Part shown: in pieces, positions 2,918-46,331 of the stretch | Position numbering within the stretch: the first letter of the stretch is position 1 | Layout of the letters: each line of letters begins with the position of its first letter | From: Lachnospiraceae bacterium A4 | GTDB taxonomy: Bacteria > Bacillota > Clostridia > Lachnospirales > Lachnospiraceae | Length of the DNA: 46,856 bases | Assembly: GCA_000403215.2 (NCBI GenBank) | Contig: KE159527.1 | Coordinates: forward strand, 209,741-256,596 | Direction of reading: 5' to 3' | Notes under the pieces: generated by a model | Database searches by the model: none | What the model was told of the DNA's origin: nothing | The model's input: only the letters and a program-made list of their open reading frames with translations | Position numbers and translations under genes: made by a program

Positions 2918-3424
2918 TCAGCGAAGCGGTACCGCATGTTCTATCTGAAACACCGTTCCCACAATATACCCGTCTGCCTCATAATAATTCAAATCAAAAT
3001 CTTCCATATTTCCTGCAAGATACTCCTTTTCATCCGTTTTGAATAAATAGATACAGGAATCATCTAAATGCTGCATACTCTGCCAGGTTGTCTCATTGAC
3101 ATTAACTGCTCTGGCAAAATAGTAATTATTCATCGTCCAGCCATTGTCATACGCATATTTAGCAAAGTCCATAATTGGACCATCGTCAAGATTGTGCGAT
3201 ACCCACACGATATGTTCGATGGATTCCCTGCCTGCAAGCTCCTCCCAGACTGCGCTTTTTAGAGGCGTTTCGTATGCCCGTTCATACGCAAATGCCTGCC
3301 GCTGCATCGCCAGCTTATTTCCAATATCAAAGATCTGCAAAAAGATACACACGGCAAACAAGACCGTGGCAGTATGTTTTCCCCTGCAAAAAGAATGCCA
3401 AAATCTGTCATAAATCTGCTCCAT
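2918..3424 (-). pseudogene. C-terminal fragment of a DUF6311-like membrane protein
   Basis: About 168 residues contain one hydrophobic segment (TATVLFAVCIFLQIFDI) and a soluble tail ending YYEADGYIVGTVFQIE. I recall this arrangement from the C-terminal end of DUF6311-type multi-spanning proteins of Clostridia, but cannot confirm it by search. The large membrane domain normally in front is missing. The frame instead emerges out of the end of the MBOAT gene (WHGA motif) in a different phase. The ATG at 3424 has no convincing ribosome site and is probably not used. I read it as the downstream side of a deletion that joined two surface-glycan genes. Confidence 0.5.
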
Positions 3425-4409
3425 GCCACAGTCCGCATGCCAGAAATACCACGATCACATTTCTGTACTGACAGAGCTTCCCTTTCCTGCTGCCGCCTAG
3501 CGGGATATAGAGATAATCGCGAAACCATGTTGAAAGTGAAATATGCCACCGATGCCAAAACTCTCTGATTGATGCCGCAAAATACGGCGCAGAAAAATTA
3601 TCCACCAGCCGATATCCCATCACCTCTGCTGCTCCTTTTGCAATTAGAGTATAGCCTGCAAGGTCACTATAGATCTGAACGGCAAACAAAACTGTTGCGA
3701 GAATCACGAAAACACCCTCATAATGTGATGGCATATCAAAGACGGCGTTTACAAAAATTGCTGCTCGGTCTGCAATCATGAGTTTCAGAAAATATCCCCA
3801 TAACATCCTCATAAGCCCGTTCCTCATGGCATCAAAATCAAACCTATGCTCCTCGTCGATCTGCTGTATCAGATTTTTTGCGCGCTCGATTGGACCAGCC
3901 ATCAGTTGTGGGAAAAACGACAAAAATAATGCATATTTCAAAAAACTGCGTTCTGCCGGAATTTCACGCCTGTATACATCTACAAGATAACTAATCGAAT
4001 GAAAAATATAAAAAGAAATGCCGATTGGTAATATTAAATTGTTCTCTGGAATCGAAATAGAGAGACCGAACTGGTCTAAAATCGAATGGAGTCCCTGAAT
4101 TGAAAAATCAATGTATTTGAACAGAAGCCAAATACCCAGATTGAATACAATACCAAAAGATACGATAATCTTTGATATTGAATCAGATACGCAAAATACC
4201 CCCCCCCGAGTATTTTTCTATCCATAAACCGCTCACATACGTCACAACAGTCACAAACAATAACAGCAGTACAGCTCTTACATCCCAGCACATATAAAAG
4301 AAATAGCTGGCTGCCAGCAGCCATAACACCTGTTTCTTCTTTGGTAACAAAAAGTATATAACAACTACAATTGGAAAAAAAATAGAAAGCTGTATGAATT
4401 AAAGAACAA
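3408..4409 (-). pseudogene. MBOAT O-acyltransferase (DltB/AlgI-like), two homopolymer frameshifts and a lost 3' end
   Basis: The family acylates extracellular polymers from a membrane acyl donor. The start is TTG at 4409, seven bases after GAGGAGG, giving FFNSYSFLFFF. One extra T in the T8 run (A8 at 4375-4382) continues as PIVVVIYFLLPKKKQ. The frame holds to IEKYSGGG, where nine G (C9 at 4199-4207) would need to be ten to continue as DSISKIIVSFGIV. From there it is open through FFPQLMAGPIERAKN and REFWHRWHISLSTWFRDY (with the conserved His) to LACGLWHGADL, then a stop. The C-terminal membrane helices after WHGA are missing and replaced by the DUF6311-like tail. As sequenced, the enzyme cannot be made whole. 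Confidence 0.8.
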
Positions 4410-4639: not shown

Positions 4640-6754
4640 TTAGTACTCCGCCCACGCGATCTTCCAGCTCCCAAGATCGGCGGCATGGCCGTCAATTGTA
4701 TATAAAATGCGGCGGTCGTAGTAATCATCTATGTGAATCCGCTGCCGCTGCTCCCCGGCAGGCACTTCGGCGAAGGTGCGCCCGTATGCCGCATGTGCTA
4801 TGCCAAATGCATCCAAAACCGTCGGCACGAGCTCCGCCTGCGTCACAGGCGCCTCACTGGTCTGCATGGCAGTGTGCTGTTCGTCAGGCAGCTTCACCAG
4901 CAGAAGCGGTCTTGAGGTCTGGTCTGGCTGGCCACTCGTTTTTTCAGTGTCCACGATCTTTCCCACCCCGTGATCGGCAGTGATAATGATGGTGGCATCC
5001 TCATATTTTCCGAGCGCCCTTAACTGTTCTAAATACGCATATACGATTTTCAGGCTGCCCGTTCCCTGTGCATTGCGCGATGACATTCTGCCAGTGGGTT
5101 CATATTTTAAATCATCTGTCAGATAAAACGGCGCGTGCGGCCCGCGCATGTGATAAAAGCGAAATGCACTCTTTTTCTCCTCAGAAACCTGCAAGCCGTT
5201 CTCCATCAAATTCTGATAAAATAACAAGTCATTGTCAATGCTCCAGACATTCTCATTGTAATACATCTCTTTAATATCAGATGTATAATATTCATACTGT
5301 TTTTTCAGGAAAAAAGGCATGGTCTTATACAAGGATGTCCGCAGCATCGTGCGGTATGTTTTGCCAGCATCATACTTCTGCACTGCATTCTCCGTATAAT
5401 TCTCCATATTCTGATACAGCTTCCTTGGCAGCAGCCCCAGATCTGTATATATTTCCACGTCGACACCCTGCGCGGCCAGACGCTCATAGACATCACTGTT
5501 CTGATAAGCATATTCATGATAACTGCCCGCATCCTCCTTCCACACCGCCCCGGTGAGCAGGCTGGTAATCCCATCACCTGTATGGGCAAACTGGGATGTG
5601 CTGTTCCTGTAATAGGTAAAGTCTGCCAATGGTTCTAAAATACGTTCATTCTCCCCGCAGAGCTCCTCGAACCAGCTACCGTCAAAATTATCAAGGACAA
5701 ACACAAGCACATTCTCCTTCTGTGCCAATTCCAGCGCGCCTTTTGTAGTAATCGCCGCATGGGTATGTTCACTTTTCAAGTCCGATGTCAGAAGAAGCCA
5801 GCCTAATGCTGCCAGTTGAATCAATGAAATATAGATGCAGACAATCCGGCACAGGGAACGAATAGATGTTTTGCGGCTTCCGCCGATCACAACTGCCAGC
5901 AGTATGACAAGCCATATGCCGCTGTTGAGCAGTAATTTGGGCATAGACCATGACTGTGCCTCGCCGTTCATGGCGTCGAGCGGACCATTGAGCACCATCT
6001 GTTGCAGATATCCCGCACAGCCAATTCCGGCCGCCACAAGATACGCTGCGCGAAAGCACCCTTTGGGCAAAAATATCACGAAAATAAAATCCAATAAGAA
6101 AATCATTACAATACTTCCTGTCAGCATAATGCCCAAAAATGGCAGAATACCGCCAGTAAACTCTTCTATATTATGAAGATACAGCTCACTGGGCAGATAG
6201 ATTCCTGTCATTACAACCCAGATGCTGATAAATGGCAGCGCCTCCACAAAATACTTCCAGTACTCTCCTGCTCCACAAAACGCCGGCTTCCATTGCCCGC
6301 TGCCCCGGTGAACGCCCAAGCCAAAAATCACGCCCGTCGCAAACAGGCATCCTATATATAAAATACAATACGCCCTGTTGTCTATCCTCTCAGACAGCAG
6401 AAGCATTCCCAGTACAGCCAAAACATACAGCAGGTCAAAAATCCGTAGAAACAGAACCCCAGCAGATGCAAACAACAGTTTCATTACAAGAAAAGCTGCC
6501 GCTGACACTGCCAAAAACACAATCCCGTAATGCAGATAGGTTATGCCCTCGGCATCCCAAAAGCTCTCTGACAAGGTACTTTGCGCCTCGCCCAGATACA
6601 GTTTGATGGCAGACGCTGTAAAGTAAATGCCTGCAAAGAAAAACAGGACTGCGCGCAGTCCGTCTGCCATCATGCCATTTTCACTCTTGCTGCGGTTGAA
6701 TCCTGCCCAGACTATCCCTGCTGCCATTCCAAAGAACAGTATATACCCTATCAT
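4640..6754 (-). CDS. Membrane alkaline-phosphatase-superfamily (sulfatase-fold) enzyme, last gene of phosphonate operon
   Basis: 704 residues. About nine hydrophobic segments fill residues 1-325. They are followed by a sulfatase-fold catalytic domain from about 345: NVLVFVLDNFDGSW (metal-ligand Asp near 355), FAHTGDGITSLLTG (candidate Thr nucleophile near 392), and IITADHGVGK (Asp593-His594). Relatives with this layout include LtaS and phosphoethanolamine transferases, which move a phospho-group onto an outer glycan or lipid; others are plain hydrolases. The start ATG at 6754 overlaps the stop of the decarboxylase gene as ATGA, implying coupled translation, so it belongs to the phosphonate pathway. 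Inference: it transfers or trims a phosphonate-bearing group outside the membrane. Its exact substrate cannot be read from sequence. Confidence 0.8.
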   Translation of the reverse strand: MIGYILFFGMAAGIVWAGFNRSKSENGMMADGLRAVLFFFAGIYFTASAIKLYLGEAQSTLSESFWDAEGITYLHYGIVFLAVSAAAFLVMKLLFASAGVLFLRIFDLLYVLAVLGMLLLSERIDNRAYCILYIGCLFATGVIFGLGVHRGSGQWKPAFCGAGEYWKYFVEALPFISIWVVMTGIYLPSELYLHNIEEFTGGILPFLGIMLTGSIVMIFLLDFIFVIFLPKGCFRAAYLVAAGIGCAGYLQQMVLNGPLDAMNGEAQSWSMPKLLLNSGIWLVILLAVVIGGSRKTSIRSLCRIVCIYISLIQLAALGWLLLTSDLKSEHTHAAITTKGALELAQKENVLVFVLDNFDGSWFEELCGENERILEPLADFTYYRNSTSQFAHTGDGITSLLTGAVWKEDAGSYHEYAYQNSDVYERLAAQGVDVEIYTDLGLLPRKLYQNMENYTENAVQKYDAGKTYRTMLRTSLYKTMPFFLKKQYEYYTSDIKEMYYNENVWSIDNDLLFYQNLMENGLQVSEEKKSAFRFYHMRGPHAPFYLTDDLKYEPTGRMSSRNAQGTGSLKIVYAYLEQLRALGKYEDATIIITADHGVGKIVDTEKTSGQPDQTSRPLLLVKLPDEQHTAMQTSEAPVTQAELVPTVLDAFGIAHAAYGRTFAEVPAGEQRQRIHIDDYYDRRILYTIDGHAADLGSWKIAWAEY

Positions 6755-7905
6755 CTTTCTTCCCCTGCCCCTATACACTCCTCTGACCACGCGCGCATAA
6801 AGTTCACCTTGTTTTCTGCCGCACACTCTTTGGGTCTGCCAAGATCTGCCCTTGAATCCAATGACACCATCACTTCAATCATGGAAAGTGCTCGGTTTGT
6901 CATCGCATCTTCCAGCGCTGTCTCCAATTCCTGTCCTGTTTTAGCCAGCACTGCACTGGAATATCCACAGGCTTTTGCTATGGATATATAGGTCTGTCCG
7001 CCATATCCTGTCGGTACCGCTCCCACAGACTCATGCGCTGCATTGTTGATCACGATATGAAGAAAGTTGCTGGGTGACTGCTTTGCCAAAACCGCCAGCG
7101 CCCCCATATGCATCAGCACTGCCCCGTCACCGTCAACACATACAATGCGCTTAGAAGCATCTGCCTGTGCCAGACCAAACGCGATCATCGAGGCATGCCC
7201 CATACCGCCCACTGTCATAAAAATCCTGTCATGATTCCCGTACATGGCATCGCACTGTTCATATAATTCCCTTGATATTTTACCGGTCGTGGAGACAATA
7301 AATGCCTGCTGATAGACCTTTTTTATCAGTATTTTCAAAACCTGCTCACGCACCAGCTCATAGCCATTGCTCCAGACAAATTCCGCTTCCTTTTCAAATG
7401 TACCTTTCCTGACAATGACCGCAAACTGCCTGTTATCCGCCATCGCATTTCTGGCTGCCGCGAGCACTTCTCCAAGCTGCTCCTTTGTCGTCGTGCTGTC
7501 TATCACAGCATAAGGCACATCCATCACTTCCAAGAGGGCGCAGGTTATTTTTCCCTGAAAAACATGCTGCGGTTCATCCGGTGTGCCTGGCTCACCACGC
7601 CAGCCGATGACAAACAGCATTGGAATGCCATATACCTCCTGATTTGCAATGGACGCCAAAGGATTGATCAGATTTCCAAGTCCCGAATTTTGCAGATAAA
7701 TCAGGCAAGGACGCCGCTGTGCCAGATAGATGCCCGTTGCCAGCCCGACTGCCGCTCCCTCATTTGCAGTCACGTAATGCTGAAATTCCCTGCCGTCGTC
7801 AAGACAGACTGCATCACAAAACGGCTTTAATGTAGAGTCCGGCACACCTGCAATGGTTCGAATTCCCAATTTTCTCACTTCCTGTAGAAAAGTACTAGCT
7901 CTCAT
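6751..7905 (-). CDS. ppd: Phosphonopyruvate decarboxylase
   Basis: 384 residues of the thiamine-diphosphate decarboxylase fold. It converts phosphonopyruvate to phosphonoacetaldehyde, the irreversible step that pulls the unfavourable PEP mutase reaction forward. Visible features are an early GVPDSTLKPF, the TANEGAAVGLATG segment with the catalytic Glu (near residue 50), and the ThDP/Mg site VDGDGAVLMHMG followed by IVINN (about residues 240-270). Length is normal for the family. The start ATG at 7905 follows AGGAG and overlaps the preceding nucleotidyltransferase gene by 11 bases. The stop overlaps the next gene by 4 bases. PepM upstream and the transaminase further up make the assignment firm; other ThDP decarboxylases are unlikely here. 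Confidence 0.93.
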   Translation of the reverse strand: MRASTFLQEVRKLGIRTIAGVPDSTLKPFCDAVCLDDGREFQHYVTANEGAAVGLATGIYLAQRRPCLIYLQNSGLGNLINPLASIANQEVYGIPMLFVIGWRGEPGTPDEPQHVFQGKITCALLEVMDVPYAVIDSTTTKEQLGEVLAAARNAMADNRQFAVIVRKGTFEKEAEFVWSNGYELVREQVLKILIKKVYQQAFIVSTTGKISRELYEQCDAMYGNHDRIFMTVGGMGHASMIAFGLAQADASKRIVCVDGDGAVLMHMGALAVLAKQSPSNFLHIVINNAAHESVGAVPTGYGGQTYISIAKACGYSSAVLAKTGQELETALEDAMTNRALSMIEVMVSLDSRADLGRPKECAAENKVNFMRAWSEECIGAGEER

Positions 7906-8626
7906 TGATGTATTCTCCTTCGTTCTGTTTCAATGCATTTTTATCCAGTAACATCAATTCCTCCACGGTGTCAACTTCCACAATCTGCCCCGGCTCTACC
8001 GGAAAAATTCGCAGTTGAAATTGATCCAGATTCCGGTCAACGACCTCATCCCAGAACAGCCCGGCATTCTCTTCTTTTATATAGGCCTCCGCAACGGCAT
8101 CTGCGAGCACACAGGCGTCTTTCTGCTGAAAATACGAGATTCCTACCATGTTATAGGTATCTGTCCCGCCTTTTCCCACTCTGGAAATAAAACCATCCTG
8201 CAAGTCAAAAACCCAGTCGTCCGAATATCCCTGCACCATCTTTCCATAATAGCCTGAGCCCTCAAGCTGTCTGTCAAAAACAGATGCGTCCGAAATCATC
8301 AAATCCGCCTCGCAGATCAGGCAGTCCGCAGTTCTGAGCACCTCTCTTGCCGCATAAATTGAAGCGATATTATTCATTGTTTCATAATCTGGATTCTCTA
8401 TCAAATGAACCTTTTCATAAGTATCGCACAAATAGGTGAATTGTTCCTTCCGATATCCCACCACGATATAGATTTCCAATACATCCCTGCGAAGCAGTCC
8501 TTCAATCACCGTCTCAATCAACGGCTTTCCAAACACTTTCACAAGAGGCTTTGGCGTATTCAATGTCAGCGGACGCATCCGCTCGCCCAGCCCGGCCGCC
8601 ATAATGATTCCGATCTCTTTTCCCAT
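7895..8626 (-). CDS. LicC-like nucleotidyltransferase, candidate CTP:2-aminoethylphosphonate cytidylyltransferase
   Basis: 243 residues. The N-terminus GIIMAAGLGERMRPLTLNTP is the sugar/choline-phosphate nucleotidyltransferase signature (GxGxRxxPLT...PK), binding the NTP. A lysine-containing KPLVKVFGKPL, the metal-ligand segment CEADLMI (Asp near 108) and a later FWDEVV follow. The ATG at 8626 is preceded by GAGAGG; a longer upstream extension lacks a ribosome site. In phosphonate clusters this family (PntC) makes CMP-aminoethylphosphonate from AEP and CTP. The gene sits between pepM and ppd, so that activity is the best inference. A choline-phosphate or sugar-phosphate substrate cannot be excluded by eye. 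Confidence 0.8.
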   Translation of the reverse strand: MGKEIGIIMAAGLGERMRPLTLNTPKPLVKVFGKPLIETVIEGLLRRDVLEIYIVVGYRKEQFTYLCDTYEKVHLIENPDYETMNNIASIYAAREVLRTADCLICEADLMISDASVFDRQLEGSGYYGKMVQGYSDDWVFDLQDGFISRVGKGGTDTYNMVGISYFQQKDACVLADAVAEAYIKEENAGLFWDEVVDRNLDQFQLRIFPVEPGQIVEVDTVEELMLLDKNALKQNEGEYINES

Positions 8627-8663
8627 TTTACACCTCTCAAAATTCCCAAAACTGTACAGCAGT

Positions 8664-9959
8664 TTACATATCATCAATGAGTGTAATAATCTCCTGAAAT
8701 GGCATCAGCTTCGCATCCACCTCGAGCGCTCTGTGGTTTTTCAGAATCTCGACTGCGGTGCTCTGCATCGCTGGAAATGCGCTCCTTGTGAGCTGGTTTG
8801 CATAGATGACGATATTGACGCCATGCTGCGCAAGCTCTGCCTCTGTCACACTGTTAAAGGATGTCGGCACGACTACTAACGGTGTGTTCTTGTCCTGACG
8901 TCGGAAGCGGTCGCAAAATTCAAAAATCTCCTCCGGTGACTTCTGCCTTGAATGGATCATGATCGCATCCGCGCCCGCACCGACATAGGCGGCTGCCCGC
9001 TGTAAGGCATCCTCCTGCCCTTTCTCCAAGATCAGACTCTCAATGCGGGCGATAATCATAAACTCTTCGGTGCGCTGCGCATTTTTTCCGGCGCGAATCT
9101 TGTTGCAGAAATTCTCTATAGAATCCTGTGTCTGCACCACATCCGTTCCAAACAGAGAATTTTTCTTTAATCCGGTCTTATCCTCGATAATGACAGCCGA
9201 CACCCCCATGCGCTCTAGCGTGCGCACATTGTATACAAAGTGCTCCACCAAGCCCCCTGTGTCGCCATCCAAGATAATAGGCTTCGTCGTCACTTCCATC
9301 ACATCATCAATCGTGCGCAGTCTGGAGGACAGATCGACAAGCTCGATATCCGGCTTTCCTTTTGCGGTGGAGTCGCACAGGCTGGACAGCCACATCGCAT
9401 CGAACTGATCCAACTCCCCATTGTGCGCTACGATGGTTTTCTCGGCAATGAGCCCTGTCAGTCCGCTATGTACTTCGATGGTCTTTACAACAGGACACAG
9501 CTTTATGAGCTGCCGCAGGCGGCGCCGCCTGTACTCTGGCATAGAGAGCCGTTCCCGGATATTGTCGTCGATTTTTCGAACACGTTCATTGCAGGTATAA
9601 GCAATTTCTATTAATTCTCCGCCATACTTTGCGAGATTTTGCAGTACATTCTCGCGGATTGCACGCTCTGGCCCCTCGCACCAGTTATCTCCATGAATCA
9701 CATAATCCGGCGAAAGTTCCGCGATAATCTCGTCGTACATGATCTCGTTTTGTATGAGAACCCACCGCGCAAGCCCGGTATCGCGCACTATCTGTTTCCG
9801 CTCTTCGATCGTGATTGTCGGAAAACGGTTGTATTTGATCATCGCCTCATCGCTCAGAATGCCAACGGTCACCTCACCGTACTTTGCCGCCTCGCGCAGC
9901 AGGTTCAAGTGTCCCTCATGAATCACATCCGTACAAAAGCAGGTGTATACTTTTTTCAT
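8664..9959 (-). CDS. pepM: Cytidylyltransferase-like domain fused to phosphoenolpyruvate mutase
   Basis: 431 residues. Residues 1 to about 135 form a TagD/GCT-type nucleotidyltransferase-like domain with CTDVIHEGHLNLL (HxGH near 14-17). The rest is PEP mutase, which isomerises PEP to phosphonopyruvate to create the C-P bond. The PepM signature EDKTGLKKNS lies at residues 259-268, with DGDTGG (231-236) and IARIE for metal and substrate binding. This variant of the EDKxxxKxNS motif separates true mutases from isocitrate-lyase relatives. The start at 9959 follows GAGGTGG. Whether the N-terminal domain is active is open; the operon also has a separate nucleotidyltransferase. It is the committed enzyme of the pathway. 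Confidence 0.93.
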   Translation of the reverse strand: MKKVYTCFCTDVIHEGHLNLLREAAKYGEVTVGILSDEAMIKYNRFPTITIEERKQIVRDTGLARWVLIQNEIMYDEIIAELSPDYVIHGDNWCEGPERAIRENVLQNLAKYGGELIEIAYTCNERVRKIDDNIRERLSMPEYRRRRLRQLIKLCPVVKTIEVHSGLTGLIAEKTIVAHNGELDQFDAMWLSSLCDSTAKGKPDIELVDLSSRLRTIDDVMEVTTKPIILDGDTGGLVEHFVYNVRTLERMGVSAVIIEDKTGLKKNSLFGTDVVQTQDSIENFCNKIRAGKNAQRTEEFMIIARIESLILEKGQEDALQRAAAYVGAGADAIMIHSRQKSPEEIFEFCDRFRRQDKNTPLVVVPTSFNSVTEAELAQHGVNIVIYANQLTRSAFPAMQSTAVEILKNHRALEVDAKLMPFQEIITLIDDM

Positions 9960-9968
9960 TACGCCACC

Positions 9969-11117
9969 TCAAGCCTTTCTGCGCCCATCTATATAACGAA
10001 TGGGAATCTGAACCCCATATTTGCGAAGCGCCTCCTCAAACACCACAAAAAATGCCTCGATATCCTTGACAGTGATCGCGCCCAATGCACAGATGCGGAA
10101 CGTGTTCTGCGTTGACACCTTGCCGGGATAGATGGTAAAACCGCGCTCATAACAGTAATCATGCACCTTCTCAAAATCCCAGTTCACATCATCGGGATAG
10201 CGCACAGACACCACCAGCCCCGCTTGCAGCTCCCTCTTTATAATGTCCTGAAAACCCAGCCGGTCAAGCCCTGCATGAATTGCCTCAAAAACGTCAAGAT
10301 GCCGCTGCCATTTCGCCTGCTCACCCTCCGCAAAATACTCATCCAACGCCTGTCTGGCGGCATAGACCGTCTGTACAGGCGGCGTGAAATGCATCTCTCC
10401 TGTTGTCTCAAAAAAATGATACTGCAAATAAAGATTGCAGTAATACGAACGTTTGGGATACTCTGCGGACTTTTCTATAAACGCTCTGTTTCCAACGATA
10501 AACGAAAGTCCTGTCATTGCCATCAGCCCTTTTTGCGCCGATGCCATACAAAAGTCTATATTGTCGTGTTCAATATCAATGGGACGCATCGCGTAGGTCG
10601 ATGTCGTATCCACTGTAAACACAGCGCCGTATTGATGCGCCAGCGCGCCGATTTCACGGATTGGATTCAAGATGCCTGTACCGGTCTCATTGTGTGTCGT
10701 GTGGACAAGTGCAATATCTGGATTTTCCCGTAAGACTGCCTCCACCTTCTCCAAATCCGGCAGCGCATCCACTGGGAAAGCCAGCTCTATCATCGGCAGG
10801 CCATAGTATTCACAGATTTCCGCTGCTCTTGCGCTGTAAGCGCCATTGTTGATGACAAGCACCTTCTTCCCCTCCGGCAGCAGGGAATTCAGACAGATAT
10901 CTATATTGATCGTGCCTGAACCGCAAAATAGTACGGCAGTATATTGATCTAAATCACCGTGAACAATACGTACCAAATCTTCGCGCATCTGTTTCATCAT
11001 GGAGGAAAACTCCTTCTCCCGCGGACAGATGTCAGGTACCACCTGTGCCATCTTCACAGTATCCGTCGTCGTTGCAGGTCCCGGATTCAATAAAATATTT
11101 CTTGTTATTTGCTGCAT
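9969..11117 (-). CDS. 2-Aminoethylphosphonate transaminase (class V PLP aminotransferase)
   Basis: 382 residues of the PhnW-like class V aminotransferase family. The N-terminus ILLNPGPATTTDTV is typical. FCGSGTINID binds the PLP phosphate, VDTTSTYAM carries the PLP-ring Asp (near 167), and ASAQKGLMAMTGLS holds the Schiff-base Lys (near 192). In this setting it would aminate phosphonoacetaldehyde to 2-aminoethylphosphonate; the same fold can run in the catabolic direction, but the linked PepM and Ppd argue for synthesis. Its ATG follows the YidC-fusion stop directly, and its ribosome site (GAGGAGGAAG) lies inside the poly-Glu codons of that gene. I leave the symbol blank because phnW and aepZ are both in use. 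Confidence 0.88.
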   Translation of the reverse strand: MQQITRNILLNPGPATTTDTVKMAQVVPDICPREKEFSSMMKQMREDLVRIVHGDLDQYTAVLFCGSGTINIDICLNSLLPEGKKVLVINNGAYSARAAEICEYYGLPMIELAFPVDALPDLEKVEAVLRENPDIALVHTTHNETGTGILNPIREIGALAHQYGAVFTVDTTSTYAMRPIDIEHDNIDFCMASAQKGLMAMTGLSFIVGNRAFIEKSAEYPKRSYYCNLYLQYHFFETTGEMHFTPPVQTVYAARQALDEYFAEGEQAKWQRHLDVFEAIHAGLDRLGFQDIIKRELQAGLVVSVRYPDDVNWDFEKVHDYCYERGFTIYPGKVSTQNTFRICALGAITVKDIEAFFVVFEEALRKYGVQIPIRYIDGRRKA

Positions 11118-13064
11118 TTAATATTCTTCTTCCTCCTCATGCTTTTTCTGATAATAGGCAAGACGCTCCATAATATACGAGGCGCCGACTTCTCCGCTGT
11201 GCCCTACGTGATAGATATACTTCTCACGGATGTCCGCAAGGGCTTCTTTGGAAAAGGCGTTATCGCTCAGCAATTCCTCCACAACCTCTGGCAGTGACGC
11301 AAGCTGGTCTGTCCCAATACTCCTGCCAATTTTATTGCGAAGCTCTATGTCGATTGGTGTGATGCCAAGCTCTACATAATCCTCATTCATGACTTTCATT
11401 GGTGTATTGATAAAAAGTGACGGCTTTAACGTCGCAAAGGAATATTCAAACGCAATGCTGGACCAGTCTGTGATCAGCACATCCGCCTCATACACAGTAC
11501 GATTTGAGGAAAAATCCGTCTGCAGCTCCATATTGCTGCGGGCGTCGATATGAAATTTTTCTCTCAGCGCATCCAGACGCTCTTGCTCATGGCGCACAAA
11601 CTGCGGATGCGGCCGGATAATGATATGATAGCCATATCCCTGCAAGCTGTTTAGCATCTCGTCAATACAGGTAGATAGAATATTATCCTTCTGCCATGAG
11701 GGTGCGATCAGGATCTCTTTGCACTTTTTTTCCTTTTTGTCCATCACTTTGTAAGACTGTATCATGTTATCAATGACACTCGAACCCCATGGGATAATAT
11801 TTTTCTGCGGCAGCTTGTACAGTTCCTCGCGCTTTCTGATTTCCGCTGTGCACAGACAGCCCGACGAGAAAATCGTATCAAAATGATCCAGTGCCTCCTT
11901 TCGAAATGTCAGGTTTGGACTGTTGACATCATGCGGCACATAGATATACTCATTGTCCTTGCGCACCAGCGAACGCTTGATATGAAAGCTCTCCAAATCC
12001 GGCGTTGTCATCACGACAATATCCGCCTCCATCTTCATCATCAGGACAATCAGCTTGTTTTCACCGATATAGTACGGCTTAAACCGCTCACTCTCCATCT
12101 CAAACACCTTGTCCTGCGGGTCGCTGGTAACATAGTTAATAATGACATCCGACTGTTCAAGAAGCGTCTCGATGATATTTTGAAAATATTTATAAAAACC
12201 GTTTTTCTCTGAATAAAAGACAAGCTGCATCTCATAATCCTTGAAAAACCGCTTGTAATCCGCGCGCTCTTTTTTCCGGTAAGGGTCTTTCCCGAATAGC
12301 TTCTTTTTGTGCTGGCTGTAAAACACACTGGCTGCCTTGAGCTCCTCACGGCTCTTCTCGAGCGCTTCATAGTCTATATAATGTTTGGGATTCATGACCA
12401 GATTCAGAAAATACAACTGCATCACAGAGAAGAGATTGCTAAACGTCCAGTAAATGCCAACACCGGTCTTGACAAAAAACCCCAGATACAGCGACAGTCC
12501 AATCGATAAGATCATGGTTCCCAACTGGTTCAGCTTTCCCTGTTCTGCCTGTAATACATTGATTTTATTCTGTATAAAGCACATAAACCACGCAGAAAAA
12601 GCAGCGATCAGCGGAATCAGATATGAGATTCCCCCAACCTCTGCGGGGACGGACGACAGGTCAAGACTTCCGAGCACAGTGTCAAGCACGCCTGATTTTC
12701 CGCGAAAAATGTGCTGTTCAGGATGATTGATCACGTCAATCACCCCCATCAGCAATATGAGCTGCAACGCAAGCGGTATCAAATCCGCCAATGGCTGATA
12801 ATGTTCTCTTTTATAGAGTTCATACTGCTCCTCAGAAATCTTTTCACCATTTCCATAATATTTTGCCTTGATCAAATTGATCTCAGGCTGCATTTTTACC
12901 ATCTTGATAGAATTTCTCTGTACCCACAAAGATACTGGCAGCAGGACGATCTTCGTGGCAAATGTAAACAGGATGATGGATATCAAATAATTTGGCAGAA
13001 TGCGGTAACAATAATACATGAGCCAGCCTAAAACACTGCCGATCAGACCTACTATATAATCCAT
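11118..13064 (-). CDS. YidC/Oxa1-like insertase domain fused to a CDP-glycerol-type glycerophosphotransferase
   Basis: 648 residues with an unusual architecture. Residues 1 to about 225 have the YidC/Oxa1 layout: a first helix, ILFTFATKIVLLPVSLW with a Lys near 38 at the place of the groove Arg of YidC, a charged hairpin, then several more helices ending YWTFSNLFSVMQLYFL. After a linker, about 275-630 is a Glyphos_transf (TagB/TagF-like) domain with IIIRPHPQF (484-487 RPHP) and EADVLITDWSSIAFEYS (TDWSS near 532-536), which normally moves a phosphopolyol from a CDP donor. The ATG at 13064 has CAGGAGAG in front. The fusion is not a normal YidC. Inference: the membrane part anchors or positions a transferase that uses a cytidylyl-activated phosphonate or glycerol phosphate. 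Confidence 0.88.
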   Translation of the reverse strand: MDYIVGLIGSVLGWLMYYCYRILPNYLISIILFTFATKIVLLPVSLWVQRNSIKMVKMQPEINLIKAKYYGNGEKISEEQYELYKREHYQPLADLIPLALQLILLMGVIDVINHPEQHIFRGKSGVLDTVLGSLDLSSVPAEVGGISYLIPLIAAFSAWFMCFIQNKINVLQAEQGKLNQLGTMILSIGLSLYLGFFVKTGVGIYWTFSNLFSVMQLYFLNLVMNPKHYIDYEALEKSREELKAASVFYSQHKKKLFGKDPYRKKERADYKRFFKDYEMQLVFYSEKNGFYKYFQNIIETLLEQSDVIINYVTSDPQDKVFEMESERFKPYYIGENKLIVLMMKMEADIVVMTTPDLESFHIKRSLVRKDNEYIYVPHDVNSPNLTFRKEALDHFDTIFSSGCLCTAEIRKREELYKLPQKNIIPWGSSVIDNMIQSYKVMDKKEKKCKEILIAPSWQKDNILSTCIDEMLNSLQGYGYHIIIRPHPQFVRHEQERLDALREKFHIDARSNMELQTDFSSNRTVYEADVLITDWSSIAFEYSFATLKPSLFINTPMKVMNEDYVELGITPIDIELRNKIGRSIGTDQLASLPEVVEELLSDNAFSKEALADIREKYIYHVGHSGEVGASYIMERLAYYQKKHEEEEEY

Positions 13065-36989: not shown

Positions 36990-38429
36990 TTAATAATTGT
37001 TAATTTTCACAGTTGACTCAAACGAATCATCCTGATAAGAGCTTTTTGCATTGATTGTCACCTCTTTGAACGTACAGTCCGCAAAGGCAGAGGTACCAAT
37101 ACTAAGTGTATTCTTCGGGATTGTCACGCTTGCAAGCGCTGTACAGCCGTTAAACGCACTGTCACCGATACTGATTACCGACTTGGGAAATGTCACTTCC
37201 GGTATCCCTGTACAGCCGCTGAATGCACTTTCTGGTATTGCCTCAATACCAGTCTTGATACTGAGCGATTTAATGCCCACACAGTTTAGAAATGCACTTT
37301 CCATCATGGTCCGCATTGTACCCGGAAGCTTTACTTCGGAGATCGCTGCACATTCTGCAAAGGCGCTCTCTCCTATCACCTCCAGCCCGTTAGGCCATTT
37401 CTCTATATCCATCGCTGCGCAGCCGTTAAATGCTTCCTTCTCAATCCTTTTCAATGAGGAGGGAAGCTTCGACAGCTCCATTTTCGCACAGTTATTAAAC
37501 GCCTGTTCCTCGATGGTTTCTATATTATTGCTAAGTTTGACCGTCTTGAGTGATTCGCACTCATTGAACAGCTTCTTGCCAAGCTTTGTCACACCGTCTG
37601 GGATTGTGACACGTGTAAGCTTCGAACAACTGTCAAAAACGCCCTCTCCCATCTCGGTCAGCTCATCTGGCAGACTGACATCCACCAAAAGTTCACTGCT
37701 CTTAAATACATTGCTGCCAAGCTTCGTCACATCATCAGGAATGGATACCCTGACAAGTGTTTTAGAACTTGCAAACGCTGAATCCATAATCTCTGTCACA
37801 GGCTTGCCGTCAATCGAATCAGGAATATCGAGCGTGGACGCTGTGCCAACATACTTTTTGATTGCCACATGATCCTTATACAATGTATACTCGTATTCGC
37901 TGTTCTTCTTCTCTTCTGTCTTGTATTCCTCTGTGGAGGACTCCTCCTCGCTGGACTCCTCTGTCTCAGTCACTTCCTCAGAAGGATTTTCTAGAAAATA
38001 CTCATGATTATCATTTCGATTGCCATCCACAGAACCATTTGTTTTCGGATTACTGCCCGATGAACCCGCTGACGGCGTATTGGTGCTTGATGTAGTGCCC
38101 GAATTTGACGCAGTGCCTGAACTGTTTGTCGTTCCCTGCGGCTTTGAGGCTTCCGCCGATTCTTCCTCAAACACCTGCATCGCCTGTGAATAATTCTTCT
38201 GTGAGTCCTCGATGATTGACTGGATATCCGCCGGAAATTCACCATTCACAGCCAGCGTCATCTCCTCGGTGCCCGTGATGGTCTCCGTCTCTGTCTCGAG
38301 CTCTGATACAATCTCTGTCGAACTTTCAGGCTCTGCGCCGATCACTCCCGTTTTATTCAGATACATTCCAAGCAAGATTGCAAATGCAACAGTGCATCCG
38401 CCTACCATTCCCCAAAAAAGTTTTTCCAT
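36990..38429 (-). CDS. BspA-like leucine-rich repeat surface protein, N-terminal membrane anchor
   Basis: 479 residues. An N-terminal helix (about 5-24, MVGGCTVAFAILLGMYL) without a clear cleavage site probably anchors it. A Ser/Thr/Glu/Asn-rich stalk follows (about 28-185). The rest (about 193-466) is LRR_5 repeats of about 23 residues, with the recurrent pattern AFxxCxxLxxVxIPxxVxxIG. These repeats resemble those of Bacteroides and oral bacterial BspA adhesins. Fibronectin or host binding is known for some family members but is not shown here. It has GGGGAA before the ATG. Confidence 0.88.
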   Translation of the reverse strand: MEKLFWGMVGGCTVAFAILLGMYLNKTGVIGAEPESSTEIVSELETETETITGTEEMTLAVNGEFPADIQSIIEDSQKNYSQAMQVFEEESAEASKPQGTTNSSGTASNSGTTSSTNTPSAGSSGSNPKTNGSVDGNRNDNHEYFLENPSEEVTETEESSEEESSTEEYKTEEKKNSEYEYTLYKDHVAIKKYVGTASTLDIPDSIDGKPVTEIMDSAFASSKTLVRVSIPDDVTKLGSNVFKSSELLVDVSLPDELTEMGEGVFDSCSKLTRVTIPDGVTKLGKKLFNECESLKTVKLSNNIETIEEQAFNNCAKMELSKLPSSLKRIEKEAFNGCAAMDIEKWPNGLEVIGESAFAECAAISEVKLPGTMRTMMESAFLNCVGIKSLSIKTGIEAIPESAFSGCTGIPEVTFPKSVISIGDSAFNGCTALASVTIPKNTLSIGTSAFADCTFKEVTINAKSSYQDDSFESTVKINNY

Positions 38430-38468
38430 TCTGTATTCCCCGGTTACTTTCTCATTTTATAATATACC

Positions 38469-40394
38469 TTACTTCTTAAAATCGTCCTCCGAAATCTGTG
38501 TTCCATAAAACGCACCGCGCACAACGGTCTTTAAGCCTTCGCATCCTGTCAGGCCTGTCAGTGAACTACAGTTTCGGAAAGCCTCGGCACAAATCTTCTC
38601 CACGGAAGCCGGCACTGCCACATCAAGGATTTCTTTGTGTCCCTTAAATGTCTCTGAACCAATCTGCTTCACGCCATCGGGAATCTCCACATGCTCACTG
38701 CTTCCTCTGTACGCCATCAGAATGCCGTCGCCCACAATCAGGAAGTCTCCGTCCTCAGTGCCAGCTGTACCGTCAAGCCATTCTTTCAGCCACGGCGTCC
38801 CCTCGAAAGCCTTGGTTCCGATTACGGAAACCGTGTCGGGTATCGTCACCTCTTTTAGATTTGCACATGCCATAAATGCACCGTATTCAATCTCTGTAAT
38901 ATTTTCAGGAATGACAACTGACTTTAGGCCGCTCTCTGCAAATGCCAGTCTGCCAATTGTTTTAATATTCTCCTCAAACTGAATCTCTGTCAAATCCTTC
39001 TGCTTATAGAATTTACGCTGTGCGATGCTGTCCTCTCCGCTTCGCTCGTAGCTCACGCTGATTGAATGTTCTGTCTTGTCTGGCTCAGTTTGTGTCTCCG
39101 CCTCTGTCGAAGCCTCCTCCACAACGTCCGCCTCTGTTCCCTCTGGGATGCCATACACCTGTCCTTTGTGGTTATCCATCAGCACCACTGCCTTTCCTGC
39201 CACAATGACCGTCTTTCCAAGAACATTATCCTTCTCTGGTACATCAAGCGGATGGATATAGTTTGCCGTGCTCTCAAACTCTGAAGGCTTCTGTTGTGTT
39301 TTATTCTCACTGCTCTCATCATCTGACGAGGTATCATCTTCTGACCCCGCAGAAGTTGTTGCCTGCGAATCCTCATTTTCGTCTGTATCAGAAGTATTTG
39401 TATCAGAATTATCCGCATCAGAAGTATTCGTATCAGAACTGTCGCCCACATTGGGCTTCTGCTCCATTCCGGCATTGCTGTCCATAAAATCATCTGGATA
39501 TTCATCTGCCTTATAAATCACTTCAATGCTGTTCTCATTACCATAAGTATCTGCTGCGCTGGACTTGCTGGTACAAATCTTAAAGTCCGGACTGCCGGAA
39601 AATGCCTTTTTGTCGATCGAAACGACAGAAGCTGGTATCACAACCTGCTTGAGATTTGCGTTGTTCGCAATCGCACGTTCCCCAATGCCTGTCGTCGGCT
39701 CCTGTATCACGACATTTTCCACACTCCCCATGCTGGACATTGCCTGTCTGGGAATGGCGGCAACCTTAGACGAAACCTTCACATTTTTGGTATTCTGAAG
39801 ATTCCAGAACGCGTAAGTATCAATGTTCTCTACCGTTTCGGGCATCACATAGTTCTCGCCTTCGCGCGCTGGGAGCACCTGATACAGCATTGTCATATTT
39901 CCATTATATATTGCACCATTATAATAAGTAAGGTACTCATTGTCCTCATCAATAGTGACTTTTGCAAGACTGTCACAGTTGGCAAACACACCTGAACCCC
40001 ATGCACGCACATGTGCGCCAATCTGGACGGAGGTGAGTGCCGTACAGCCCTCAAAAGCGCCCGGTCCCACCTTCTCAACTGATGCCGGCAGAATCACGCT
40101 CTTGAGCGCTGTACAGTTTTTAAATGCATTGTATGAAATCTGTTCTACAGAACTGGGAATTTCGATACTTGTGAGTGTCTCATTTCCTGAAAACGCCTCA
40201 TCGCCAATGCTTGAAACCGTATCCGGGACACTGACAAAAGTGTCAGTTCCCAGATATTTTGTCAATGTCGTTCCCTTTATGCGGAATCTGTCATCCTCCG
40301 CGGCCGTCACGCCGCCGATTCCGTGGGCAACTGTCACAAGCACAAGGATTCCCAATAATACCATGCTTGCAATCGCAATGTGTAATCTTTTCAT
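38469..40394 (-). CDS. BspA-like leucine-rich repeat surface protein, two LRR blocks
   Basis: 641 residues. A signal-like helix at 5-28 (IAIASMVLLGILVLVTVAHG) is followed by an LRR_5 block (about 45-285). An acidic Ser/Asp/Thr linker (about 305-375, with SDTNTSD repeats) and a short middle segment lead to a second LRR_5 block (about 461-641). No C-terminal anchor motif is seen, so it may be secreted or held by its N-terminal helix. It is placed between the 1941-aa and 479-aa LRR genes with gaps of 27 and 39 bases, strongly suggesting one operon. The ATG has AAAAGGAG upstream. Confidence 0.88.
   Translation of the reverse strand: MKRLHIAIASMVLLGILVLVTVAHGIGGVTAAEDDRFRIKGTTLTKYLGTDTFVSVPDTVSSIGDEAFSGNETLTSIEIPSSVEQISYNAFKNCTALKSVILPASVEKVGPGAFEGCTALTSVQIGAHVRAWGSGVFANCDSLAKVTIDEDNEYLTYYNGAIYNGNMTMLYQVLPAREGENYVMPETVENIDTYAFWNLQNTKNVKVSSKVAAIPRQAMSSMGSVENVVIQEPTTGIGERAIANNANLKQVVIPASVVSIDKKAFSGSPDFKICTSKSSAADTYGNENSIEVIYKADEYPDDFMDSNAGMEQKPNVGDSSDTNTSDADNSDTNTSDTDENEDSQATTSAGSEDDTSSDDESSENKTQQKPSEFESTANYIHPLDVPEKDNVLGKTVIVAGKAVVLMDNHKGQVYGIPEGTEADVVEEASTEAETQTEPDKTEHSISVSYERSGEDSIAQRKFYKQKDLTEIQFEENIKTIGRLAFAESGLKSVVIPENITEIEYGAFMACANLKEVTIPDTVSVIGTKAFEGTPWLKEWLDGTAGTEDGDFLIVGDGILMAYRGSSEHVEIPDGVKQIGSETFKGHKEILDVAVPASVEKICAEAFRNCSSLTGLTGCEGLKTVVRGAFYGTQISEDDFKK
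39387..39442. repeat. Short tandem repeats encoding the SDTNTSD linker
   Basis: Near-identical units of about 30 bases built around TCAGAAGTATTYGTATCAGAA encode Ser-Asp-Thr-Asn repeats in the 641-aa protein. The frame is kept. It is length-variable in principle. Confidence 0.6.
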
Positions 40395-40421
40395 AGTGGC
40401 TCCTTTTCCCTTGTCTCATAT

Positions 40422-43400
40422 TTATGCTGCCCTGAAATTTTTACGCTTCCGTCCATCACTTGTGACAAACAGTAAGATGGAAATACATGCCATACCGATT
40501 GCCGCAAACCACTTCGGATGAATCGGGTCCCCTGTTGCCGGCGTCGCGTCAAGCATCTGGCCCGCGGTTAAGTTGTTGGTATCGACATAAATCACATACG
40601 GTGAAAAATGTGGTGGTACGAACGAAATACATGCAATTCCGTCAATCGTTGTAAATCTCGGTGTCAACTGCTGTAAATTGCCATTGTCTGCCGCTGCCAC
40701 ACGCGCATTTCCGCCATACTGGATCAGCACATCCGGGATTGGCATTGTCACCGTGATATTTAAACCATAGGTATCTGTAATCTTATTCTGGCCTGTCGAG
40801 TCATAGAGTGATATATCCATCGGGAAGTACGCCAGCCCGTCAAGCGAGCCATACATGTTTCGAAGTGATTCCTCCACTGCCGCTGTTGCCTCCGCGGACT
40901 CTGTAATGCGCACGATAAAGTTATCGGTAGAGCCATCGACAGAAATCGAAGCCACATCTTTATTCGACACACCATTCTTCGTAATATAAATCTTGTTGCC
41001 GTCATTGTTGTTCGTGCCTGCCGTACTATCATTTGACGGACTGGTCACGGGGCCTGTCGTGCCCGGCGTTGTTGACGAGTTTCCGGGTCTGTTGTCAACC
41101 GTTGTCGTATTCGTGTTGCTTCCCGGTCTCTTGGACGGTCTGTCGTCGTCATCATCGTCGTCATCGTCTGAGCGCAGCTTATAGTTCGCCGTTACAGTTA
41201 CGTCCGCCGCCGGCATAATAAATGACGTGGTTGAGGAGTTTGCATTGGCAAATCCTAAGCCTGAATTATTGGTGGTCCATTTCGAAAATACTCTGCTGGA
41301 GGACTCTGGTGCATATGCCGAGATATTGACAGTCGCTCCTGCCGCATACTCGCCGCTTCCTGAACCATAGTTGACTGTTACCTTATATTTTGTTCCGCTG
41401 TCACCGCCCGGCTGTCCGCCTGAGCCATCACTAAAGTTTGCCGTCACAGTTACATTCGAGGAAGGCATCACAAATGTTGTCACTGCGGATTTTGCATTGG
41501 CAAGCGTAACTCCTGCTGTCGCTGTTGTCCAGTTTACAAAGGAAGCGCCTGCATTCGGGGTGTTTGCTGTAATTGTTACTGTAGTACCCGGTGCAAACTG
41601 TCCGCCGCCTCTGCCGTTCACAACTGTAACAGTGTACTTTCCGTCCGGCCCCGGCGTATTTCCGCCTGAACCGCCGCTGAAATTCGCTGTCAATGTCACA
41701 TTTTCATTTGGCATGATAAATGTCGTGCTTGCAGTGGAAACCCCGTCAACCAGTAAATTTGCATAAGACGCTGGCTCAACTGTCCAGTATGTAAACTGGC
41801 TTCCGTCTGTTCTGCTCTCTGCGGCAACTAAGATTCTGTCACCGCCCTTTGCCGTAATCGGCTCTGTCTTACCGTTGGCAGTACCATTCTTGATGGTCAG
41901 TGTATACTCATTGCCATCTGGCACAACAATATTTGAATTTGGCTTATAAACTGCCTGAATAATTCTGTCCTCTGTTACATTTAACCATGGATCTCCTGAG
42001 CCTGTAAACTGTGTACCGTCTGACAAGATACACTTCCATGCAGAGAACTCATATCCTGAACGCTCTGGTCTTGCCACGCAGATCGCATCTGCGCCATGGT
42101 CTACATACTGAGGATTCTGAACCTCCGGATCCACAATCAGGGAGGTATCATAGTCAATAAATGTCACTTTATGCTTATCTTCTGAGACAAAGATAATGTT
42201 CTCTTCTTTCCCCTGTGGCCTGAGTTTGTCTTTCATTTTCAGATAGAAGTTATAAATCGCACTGTTTCTTGTACCGGAAGCATCAAACTGCGGTCCTCTG
42301 ATCGTAACCTTGCGGTTGCCGTCAAAGTTAAAAGCAGTCTCGCCAATCGCACAGCTTGGATTCGGAATTGTAATCTCCATGTTGTCGCTGGTGTCAAGAA
42401 ATGCTTCCGCACCGATCGTCTCAATGCTCTCTGGAAGCTTCACTGTACCAAGCTTTCCTGATTTGTAGAAGCACCGCTCTGGAATCTGTGTGACAGAAGA
42501 TGCTGTCAAATCCACTTCTGTGATCTCTTCACAGTATGAGAATGCTTCATTGTCAATGCTGACAACATTTGCTAACAGCGGGTCTCCTGAGTCCACGCCG
42601 ACCTTGAACGAACCGCTCGCGCCGCTGCCGCTTCCTCTGCCCTCAAGACACTGGATAATCTCAAGGCCATTCGCCGGGGTCTGGGTTTTCCGAAACAGAA
42701 TCATATTGCCAAACTGCACATATGGATTTTCTGCCGGGATAGAAATATTTGTCAGGTTTTTGCAGTTTCTGTAGGGCAATGCGCCGATCTCCTGCATCTG
42801 AGGCCCGTAAGCAGTTGACAGCAGGTTCTCACAGCTCATAAATGCATAGTCTGGCAGTGACCTGATGGTCTTTAAATCAATCGTTGTCAGATAGTCGTTG
42901 CCGATCACTGAATTTTCAACATAAGAATGTCCGTTATAGGTACGCCATATAATTCCCGGTATATCATCTGTAATCCTTGTAATATCAGTACTTAGCTCAG
43001 ACTCTGCCAAAAATCCGCTGAACAAGCCGGCTTTCTGTCCAAACTCATCCAAATCCTTGTCTGCTATGTACTTATCATCAGAGTACACACTTCTGACATC
43101 GCCATATCTGCTGTAACTCCGCTTCTGGTTGATATTTCTCTCTAAGCTGTCCGACTCTCCCTTGATACCGATCTCAATCTCCTTGCCGTTTGCCAGCTTT
43201 GTCTCCGGTGTATAGCTTCTGCTCAGATATGCCAGATCACTTGCGTTCTGCGTCTCATTGTAGTACGCGTTCGCGTCAATGCTGTCAATACCTCTTGGTA
43301 TTGTCATAAACAGTGTATACAATGGAATATCTTCTTCGCTGAAATTCTTATATTTATTGTAAGGTCTCTCTGCATAGTTCGGGTCCGTCGTATTTCTCAG

Positions 43401-46247: not shown

Positions 46248-46331
46248 GTTGTTTCTCCCCACTTTTGTTATTTATATTCCCTCTTAATTGCAACATCATT
46301 TATTTACACATATAATTCTGTGCCCCCAATC

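Follow-up and report, generated by a model that had tools for sequence, protein, structure and literature searches.

The 648-aa fusion protein encoded by Lachnospiraceae bacterium A4, in which a YidC/Oxa1 domain is joined to a TagF-like transferase domain, looks like one of four parts that move charged headgroups such as aminoethylphosphonate (AEP) towards the cell surface. Its gene lies in a phosphonate operon of the 46,856-nucleotide stretch of contig KE159527.1 analysed here (the window). The initial annotation had described one frame joining a YidC fold to a TagF-like transferase in a pepM operon, and this was confirmed by Pfam (PF02096 and PF04464) and fold comparison. PF02096 (60KD_IMP) matched the fusion at 102.7 bits (cut-off, 35) over profile positions 1–162 of 163, and the N-terminal half contained the whole YidC fold, including the cytosolic helical hairpin. 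PF04464 (Glyphos_transf) matched at 35.9 bits (cut-off, 22.1), and the second half had the TagF fold.

Table 1 Genes and domains of the phosphonate operon in the window.
Feature	Position	Strand	Evidence
YIDP microprotein, 80 aa	13079..13321	-	14 bp upstream of fusion; homologue search, motif by eye
Fusion of YidC-like domain and TagF-like (Glyphos_transf) transferase, 648 aa	11118..13064	-	Pfam, fold comparison
YidC/Oxa1 domain, residues 1-232 of fusion	12369..13064	-	
TagF/TarL-type transferase domain, residues ~262-648 of fusion	11118..12281	-	
2-Aminoethylphosphonate aminotransferase (PhnW/AepZ type)	9969..11117	-	TIGR03301, 470 bits (cut-off 360.8)
PEP mutase (PepM), N-terminal CTP_transf_like domain	8664..9959	-	TIGR02320, 410.7 bits (cut-off 319.55); PF01467 and PF13714 above cut-off
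MobA/LicC-like nucleotidyltransferase, likely PntC-type	7895..8677	-	PF12804 and PF00483 above cut-off
Phosphonopyruvate decarboxylase	6751..7905	-	TIGR03297, 442.3 bits (cut-off 312.5)
Membrane sulfatase-fold (alkaline phosphatase superfamily) enzyme, 728 aa	4640..6826	-	PF00884, 46.2 bits (cut-off 25)

On the minus strand, the genes are arranged in the order microprotein, fusion, AEP aminotransferase, PepM, nucleotidyltransferase, decarboxylase, and sulfatase-fold protein. By coordinates, the first four genes are separated by 14, 0, and 9 bp, and the nucleotidyltransferase and decarboxylase frames overlap by 11 nt. The true starts of the nucleotidyltransferase and sulfatase-fold genes are probably at 8626 and 6754, respectively; if the latter begins there, the decarboxylase stop overlaps it by 4 nt. 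PntC-type nucleotidyltransferases produce CMP-AEP, and pepM likewise occurs with nucleotidyltransferase domains for CMP-AEP in the pathways described for the phosphonate cytidylyltransferase PntC (PMC6697681). Since the window encodes a likely PntC-type enzyme, the activated phosphonate should be available in the cell. Two other regions of the minus strand were recorded. Positions 36990–46262 encode three adjacent BspA-type leucine-rich repeat proteins of 479, 641, and 1946 aa; InlB-like B-repeats are present in the 1946-aa protein. Positions 2918–3941 hold an apparently fragmented MBOAT acyltransferase gene, in which a 177-aa frame corresponds to profile positions 83–277 of 337 and the following frame is matchless, possibly a remnant.

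The lysine that the initial annotation placed at the groove arginine position of YidC is present (K38), but it does not define a special groove. The position was occupied by K in 26 and R in 3 of 29 representative fusions, and is thus positive in all 29, while in 20 ordinary YidCs of the class it was R in 9, K in 5, Y in 5, and M in 1. Lysine, and even tyrosine, is therefore common in ordinary YidCs, and K38 was rejected as a special mark. In YidC-sulfatase proteins, the same position was N, S, Q, or T in 10 of 10. Because a second, ordinary YidC is encoded elsewhere in the genome, the fused copy is unlikely to serve as the housekeeping insertase. A search of the PDB with profile A1 returned YidC chains only (7 sequences at E 0.01). 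The fusion YidC domains grouped into a single clade (29/29 representatives; SH-aLRT, 100) in a quick tree of 59 rows, separate from that of the sulfatase-fused YidCs. Two separate recruitments of YidC were considered but are not supported, as the AU test is compatible with a single clade (p = 0.48; 0.44 when locus L052 is omitted); tree and AU test do not tell one recruitment from two. The module has in common with the YidC/Oxa1/Alb3 insertases the whole fold and the Pfam domain, whereas it differs from them in forming its own clade in the quick tree, in being a second copy beside the housekeeping YidC, and in its linkage to an enzyme. The C-terminus of YidC is cytosolic, on the same side of the membrane as CMP and CDP donors.

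Matching the transferase half to the PDB required a transferase-specific profile. Fold alignments to the TagF/TarL polymerases and TagF-like Cps3D gave 15–18% identity, and in profile alignments the RPHP region aligned with KMHP of TarL, and the TDWSS region with TDYSS of Cps3D and SDYSS of TarL. K363, S365, H378, RPHP, D533, and S535 (numbered in the window's fusion protein) did not vary across 20 fused and standalone forms; although H378 is invariant, the profile alignments begin past it and give no residue-level pairing with the first catalytic His of TagF, H444. The fusion belongs to the same Pfam family as the TagF/TarL teichoic acid polymerases and the TagF-like Cps3D, but it differs from them in its N-terminal YidC domain and in its predicted donors. 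AEP, phosphoethanolamine, and phosphocholine have no free hydroxyl of the kind needed by a TagF-type polymerase. Since such headgroups cannot be chained, decoration rather than polymerisation would be expected, unlike in TagF. A transferase without the YidC domain (38% identity) was found inside an AEP operon (L207, genome G846), which suggests that catalysis is probably independent of the YidC part.

To describe the surroundings of the fusion, a scan of genome contigs yielded 513 stretches encoding relatives, of which the best 80, the nearest relatives only, were analysed; 68 of these 80 are titled Lachnospiraceae. Donor cassettes were scored at 100 bits within 10 kb of the fusion. Among these best 80 of 513 loci, a pepM cassette was present in 46, a nucleotidyltransferase with a CobD-like PLP decarboxylase in 11, and a choline-kinase/LicC-like cassette in 4; none of the three lay within the available flank in 19, and no locus (0/80) had two kinds. 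A headgroup cassette of any kind thus accompanied 61 of the best 80 of 513 loci, compared with 0 of 20 control loci of ordinary YidC genes, which extended up to ~10 kb on either side and form a soft control, just three coming from genomes with both fusion and pepM. The 20 control loci lacked matches to pepM, to CobD-like, choline kinase, and BCCT genes, and to sulfatase, and only two weak class V aminotransferase matches appeared. An essential role of phosphonate is not supported: 15 of the best 80 of 513 loci have non-phosphonate cassettes and 19 have none of the three, so that the opposing case, fusions standing apart from phosphonate genes, is in part what was found. Several of the 19 are cut by a contig end or have a partial cassette (L083, L094, L097, and L101). 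In L084, positions 6076–8539 encode a class V aminotransferase and a CTP_transf_like–GFO_IDH_MocA (oxidoreductase) fusion, a possible fourth donor cassette; in L130, the PLP and nucleotidyltransferase genes are separate. Outside the 80, a locus from another family of the order (L052; 36–37% identity) carries the fusion with choline kinase family, LicC-like, and BCCT transporter genes.

The CobD-like part matched TIGR01140 at 119.2 bits, under its cut-off of 290.55. Cj1436 of C. jejuni is presumably a PLP enzyme. It is cited as a comparison for the CobD-like part (PMC12409886). By analogy, this cassette would probably supply CDP-ethanolamine. On a quick IQ-TREE tree of the transferase (83 rows, some with long branches), the three cassette labels required at least seven changes, and the transferase therefore appears to adapt to the activated headgroup that the adjacent genes supply. 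Because the cassettes swap in this way, the fusion looks, from its gene neighbourhoods, like a donor-flexible, LicD-like enzyme. The initial proposal of a polymer-modifying enzyme using a cytidylyl-activated phosphonate accordingly names the natural donor in the window and is too narrow elsewhere, where other donor cassettes occur. Beside choline kinase, LicC-like, and BCCT transporter genes (L052, L091, L100, and L108), the fusion fills the transferase place held by LicD in lic operons. Unlike the LicD phosphocholine transferases, it has a different fold, is membrane-embedded, and gave no LicD (PF04991) match when scanned against Pfam at E 0.1; the window's genome has three LicD genes at other sites. 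Two further arrangements were observed. In L108 (11141–12907) and L114 (11846–13684), LicC-like and choline kinase domains are fused behind a winged-helix domain. In L080, L087, L092, and L096, the fusion and microprotein are flanked by an ABC-F-like gene on one side and a ksgA-like gene on the other (names assigned by eye), and no cassette was found there.

Among 98 genomes searched, including that of the window, 29 had a full-length fusion, or 30 when a contig-end fragment in G015 is counted. pepM was located within 10 kb on the same contig in 20 of the 29, and was present in 22 of the 30 fusion genomes of these 98. Conversely, the fusion was absent from 8 of 30 pepM genomes, one of which (G041) has a standalone transferase adjoining pepM. 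Therefore, AEP use does not require the fusion. In a sample of the class (391 genomes), the fusion was matched in four genomes besides the window's own (G059, G329, G233, and G422); in a sample of the phylum (398 genomes; E 1e-32), it was matched only in G233 besides the window's own, and standalone transferases were found in G846, G791, and G209. At most three candidates were scored per genome in both samples, so misses are possible. A plasmid search returned one record, covering the YidC part only. Matches also came from four 'Bacteriophage sp.' records of human faecal origin that lack annotation, and in three of them the match spanned ≥80% of the query; MT838376.1, MT836777.1, and MT836947.1 contain near full-length relatives (46–48% identity) and may be bacterial contigs.

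The microprotein shows by eye a signal-like segment, YIDPSAVTYVIQAVAGVAIAVGAA, the motif YIDPSAVTY, one hydrophobic helix, and a basic tail. Searches of Pfam (at its cut-offs) and NCBIfam (at E 0.01) placed it in no family. A search profile derived from 60 upstream copies detected one copy each in 74 of the best 80 of 513 fusion loci, 60 of which had seeded the profile and 14 of which were new. Relative to the fusion match, 62 copies were upstream, 10 downstream, and 2 overlapping; in L105 and L120 the distance exceeded 1.2 kb. The profile did not find it in L060, L093, L097, L099, L104, and L131, L060 having just 106 upstream bases. The remaining profile matches among 28,871 frames searched were all in transferase-bearing loci, and the 20 ordinary YidC loci gave none. 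With the window's microprotein as query against 60 genomes, it was present in 26, all among the 27 with the fusion. Of its 27 places, 26 were 12–354 bp from the fusion match and one (G022) was on another contig. The sole fusion genome without a single-query match, G081, has a weak profile copy (L052, E 0.0038).

A sulfatase-like gene (50 bits) lay within 10 kb of the fusion in 47 of the best 80 of 513 loci, with no match in 33, compared with 0 of 20 controls. D379, T416, H564, D618, and H619 of the window's sulfatase-fold protein were kept in 70, 71, 75, 75, and 75 of 75 aligned rows, respectively, these rows having been collected by likeness to two query domains. T416 is the residue that we take to be the nucleophile, and the conserved residues fit an LtaS/EptA-like transferase with a Thr nucleophile. 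With such enzymes the partner shares the Sulfatase domain, the Thr where the nucleophile is expected, and the DHG motif, and it is presumably kin to LtaS and EptA themselves; unlike them, it accompanies a YidC module and a cytosolic nucleotide-dependent transferase, to which it is fused at some loci. YidC, transferase, and sulfatase occur in this order in one protein in L103 (1359 aa) and L109 (1241 aa), and as sulfatase–YidC–transferase in L118 (1200 aa), all nine domain matches exceeding the curated cut-offs. In the model of L118, the sulfatase half had pLDDT mostly <50 and was unusable for fold comparison.

Twelve standalone transferases (~24–30% identical) all carry YIDPGTG near the N-terminus. 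The genes of eight directly adjoin a gene for an 850–940 aa protein with a YidC-like start; a ninth (L166, 6579–7859) is ~4 kb from such a protein, and L164, L182, and L208 are without one. Among eight of these large proteins scanned with Pfam, 60KD_IMP exceeded its cut-off in all eight, and Sulfatase matched at E ≤0.01 in all eight, over the curated cut-off in five. In L175, the YIDP element opens the sulfatase protein, beside a YidC-transferase, while in L207 the YIDPGTG start is absent and two sulfatase-domain proteins follow. These several combinations of YidC, transferase, sulfatase, and YIDP suggest that the four belong to one machine.

Domain content, operon, cassette swapping, co-occurrence with YIDP, and fusion combinations are properties of the sequences themselves; what they do together is modelled as follows. 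We consider it fairly probable that the fusion is a membrane-anchored transferase which, together with its YidC module, YIDP, and the sulfatase-fold enzyme, uses a cytidine-nucleotide donor to attach a small headgroup to a lipid or a glycan carried on a lipid. The donor, here CMP-AEP, would be made in the cytosol, and activated AEP is probably the substrate in the window. The transferase would then add the zwitterionic headgroup to its acceptor on the cytosolic side of the membrane; that the acceptor is a lipid is an even call. The YidC module may move or present the intermediate across the membrane, or dock the partners via the YIDP helix, and its moving or presenting role is put forward tentatively. 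Finally, the sulfatase-fold membrane enzyme might complete the process on the outer face, in the manner of LtaS- or EptA-type enzymes, a step for which the chances seem balanced. The YidC-module and outer-transfer steps are the least certain of these. E. coli YidC and other Oxa1-family insertases are described in a preprint as scrambling lipids in vitro (PMC10491306). In a stronger form of the model, which is possible though doubtful, the YidC module would no longer insert proteins and, with the YIDP helix, would carry a lipid loaded with AEP, phosphoethanolamine, or phosphocholine across, whereupon the sulfatase-fold enzyme would pass the headgroup to an outer glycan.

The module could instead be a docking scaffold only, its groove holding the YIDP helix and so joining transferase and sulfatase-fold enzyme, with neither scrambling nor insertion. 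In the profile matches and the 12 standalone transferases, YIDP never shares a polypeptide with YidC, yet each is fused to either enzyme; YIDP-transferase pairs with YidC-sulfatase, and YIDP-sulfatase with YidC-transferase (L175). Small one-helix proteins are bound by YidC, and the microprotein is of this type. However, its link to the YIDPGTG ends of the standalone transferases is a weak likeness (no profile match better than E 0.07; by hhalign, a probability of 38.8, compared with 1.1 when the control was reversed), and we regard this explanation as rather unlikely.

A dedicated insertase, fused by chance of operon life, might also insert the microprotein or sulfatase-fold enzyme while the transferase alone, like LicD, decorates a cytosolic lipid-linked glycan. 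The complete fold with its cytosolic hairpin, the positive groove residue in 29/29 fusions, and the transferase domain lacking YidC in L207 agree with this. Against it stand the other YidC of the genome, the N, S, Q, or T at the groove position of all 10 YidC-sulfatase proteins, and the fusion to a catalytic domain and the triple fusions with sulfatase, which suggest a shared pathway; we judge it unlikely. An ordinary polymerase of the TagF type, making capsule or teichoic acid, with an odd anchor and coincidental phosphonate genes nearby would suit the CDP-glycerol glycerophosphotransferase family assignment by Pfam and fold, and some cassette-less loci resembling polysaccharide clusters by eye (L101, L115, and L129), but is very improbable given the cassettes in 61 of the best 80 of 513 loci against none of 20 controls, and donors that cannot be chained.

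No account of a YidC-transferase or YidC-sulfatase fusion was found among the matches listed in open-access PMC titles and abstract starts. The study of PntC pathways by Rice et al. (2019) names LicD-like transferases, the terms 'YidC' and 'CDP-glycerol' being absent from its main text, and there the later steps of surface phosphonate assembly were termed enigmatic (PMC6697681). The component families are known, and their four-part combination with the microprotein is apparently undescribed. It offers a concrete gene set in which to look for such a phosphonate assembly step in gut Clostridia, a non-homologous counterpart of LicD in the fusion, and a conserved, unannotated microprotein in addition. 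To our knowledge, a non-insertase job for a bacterial YidC fold would be a first, and we know of no natural system that exploits lipid scrambling by YidC. The fusion system is a natural candidate for a use of this activity, as described in vitro (PMC10491306, preprint).
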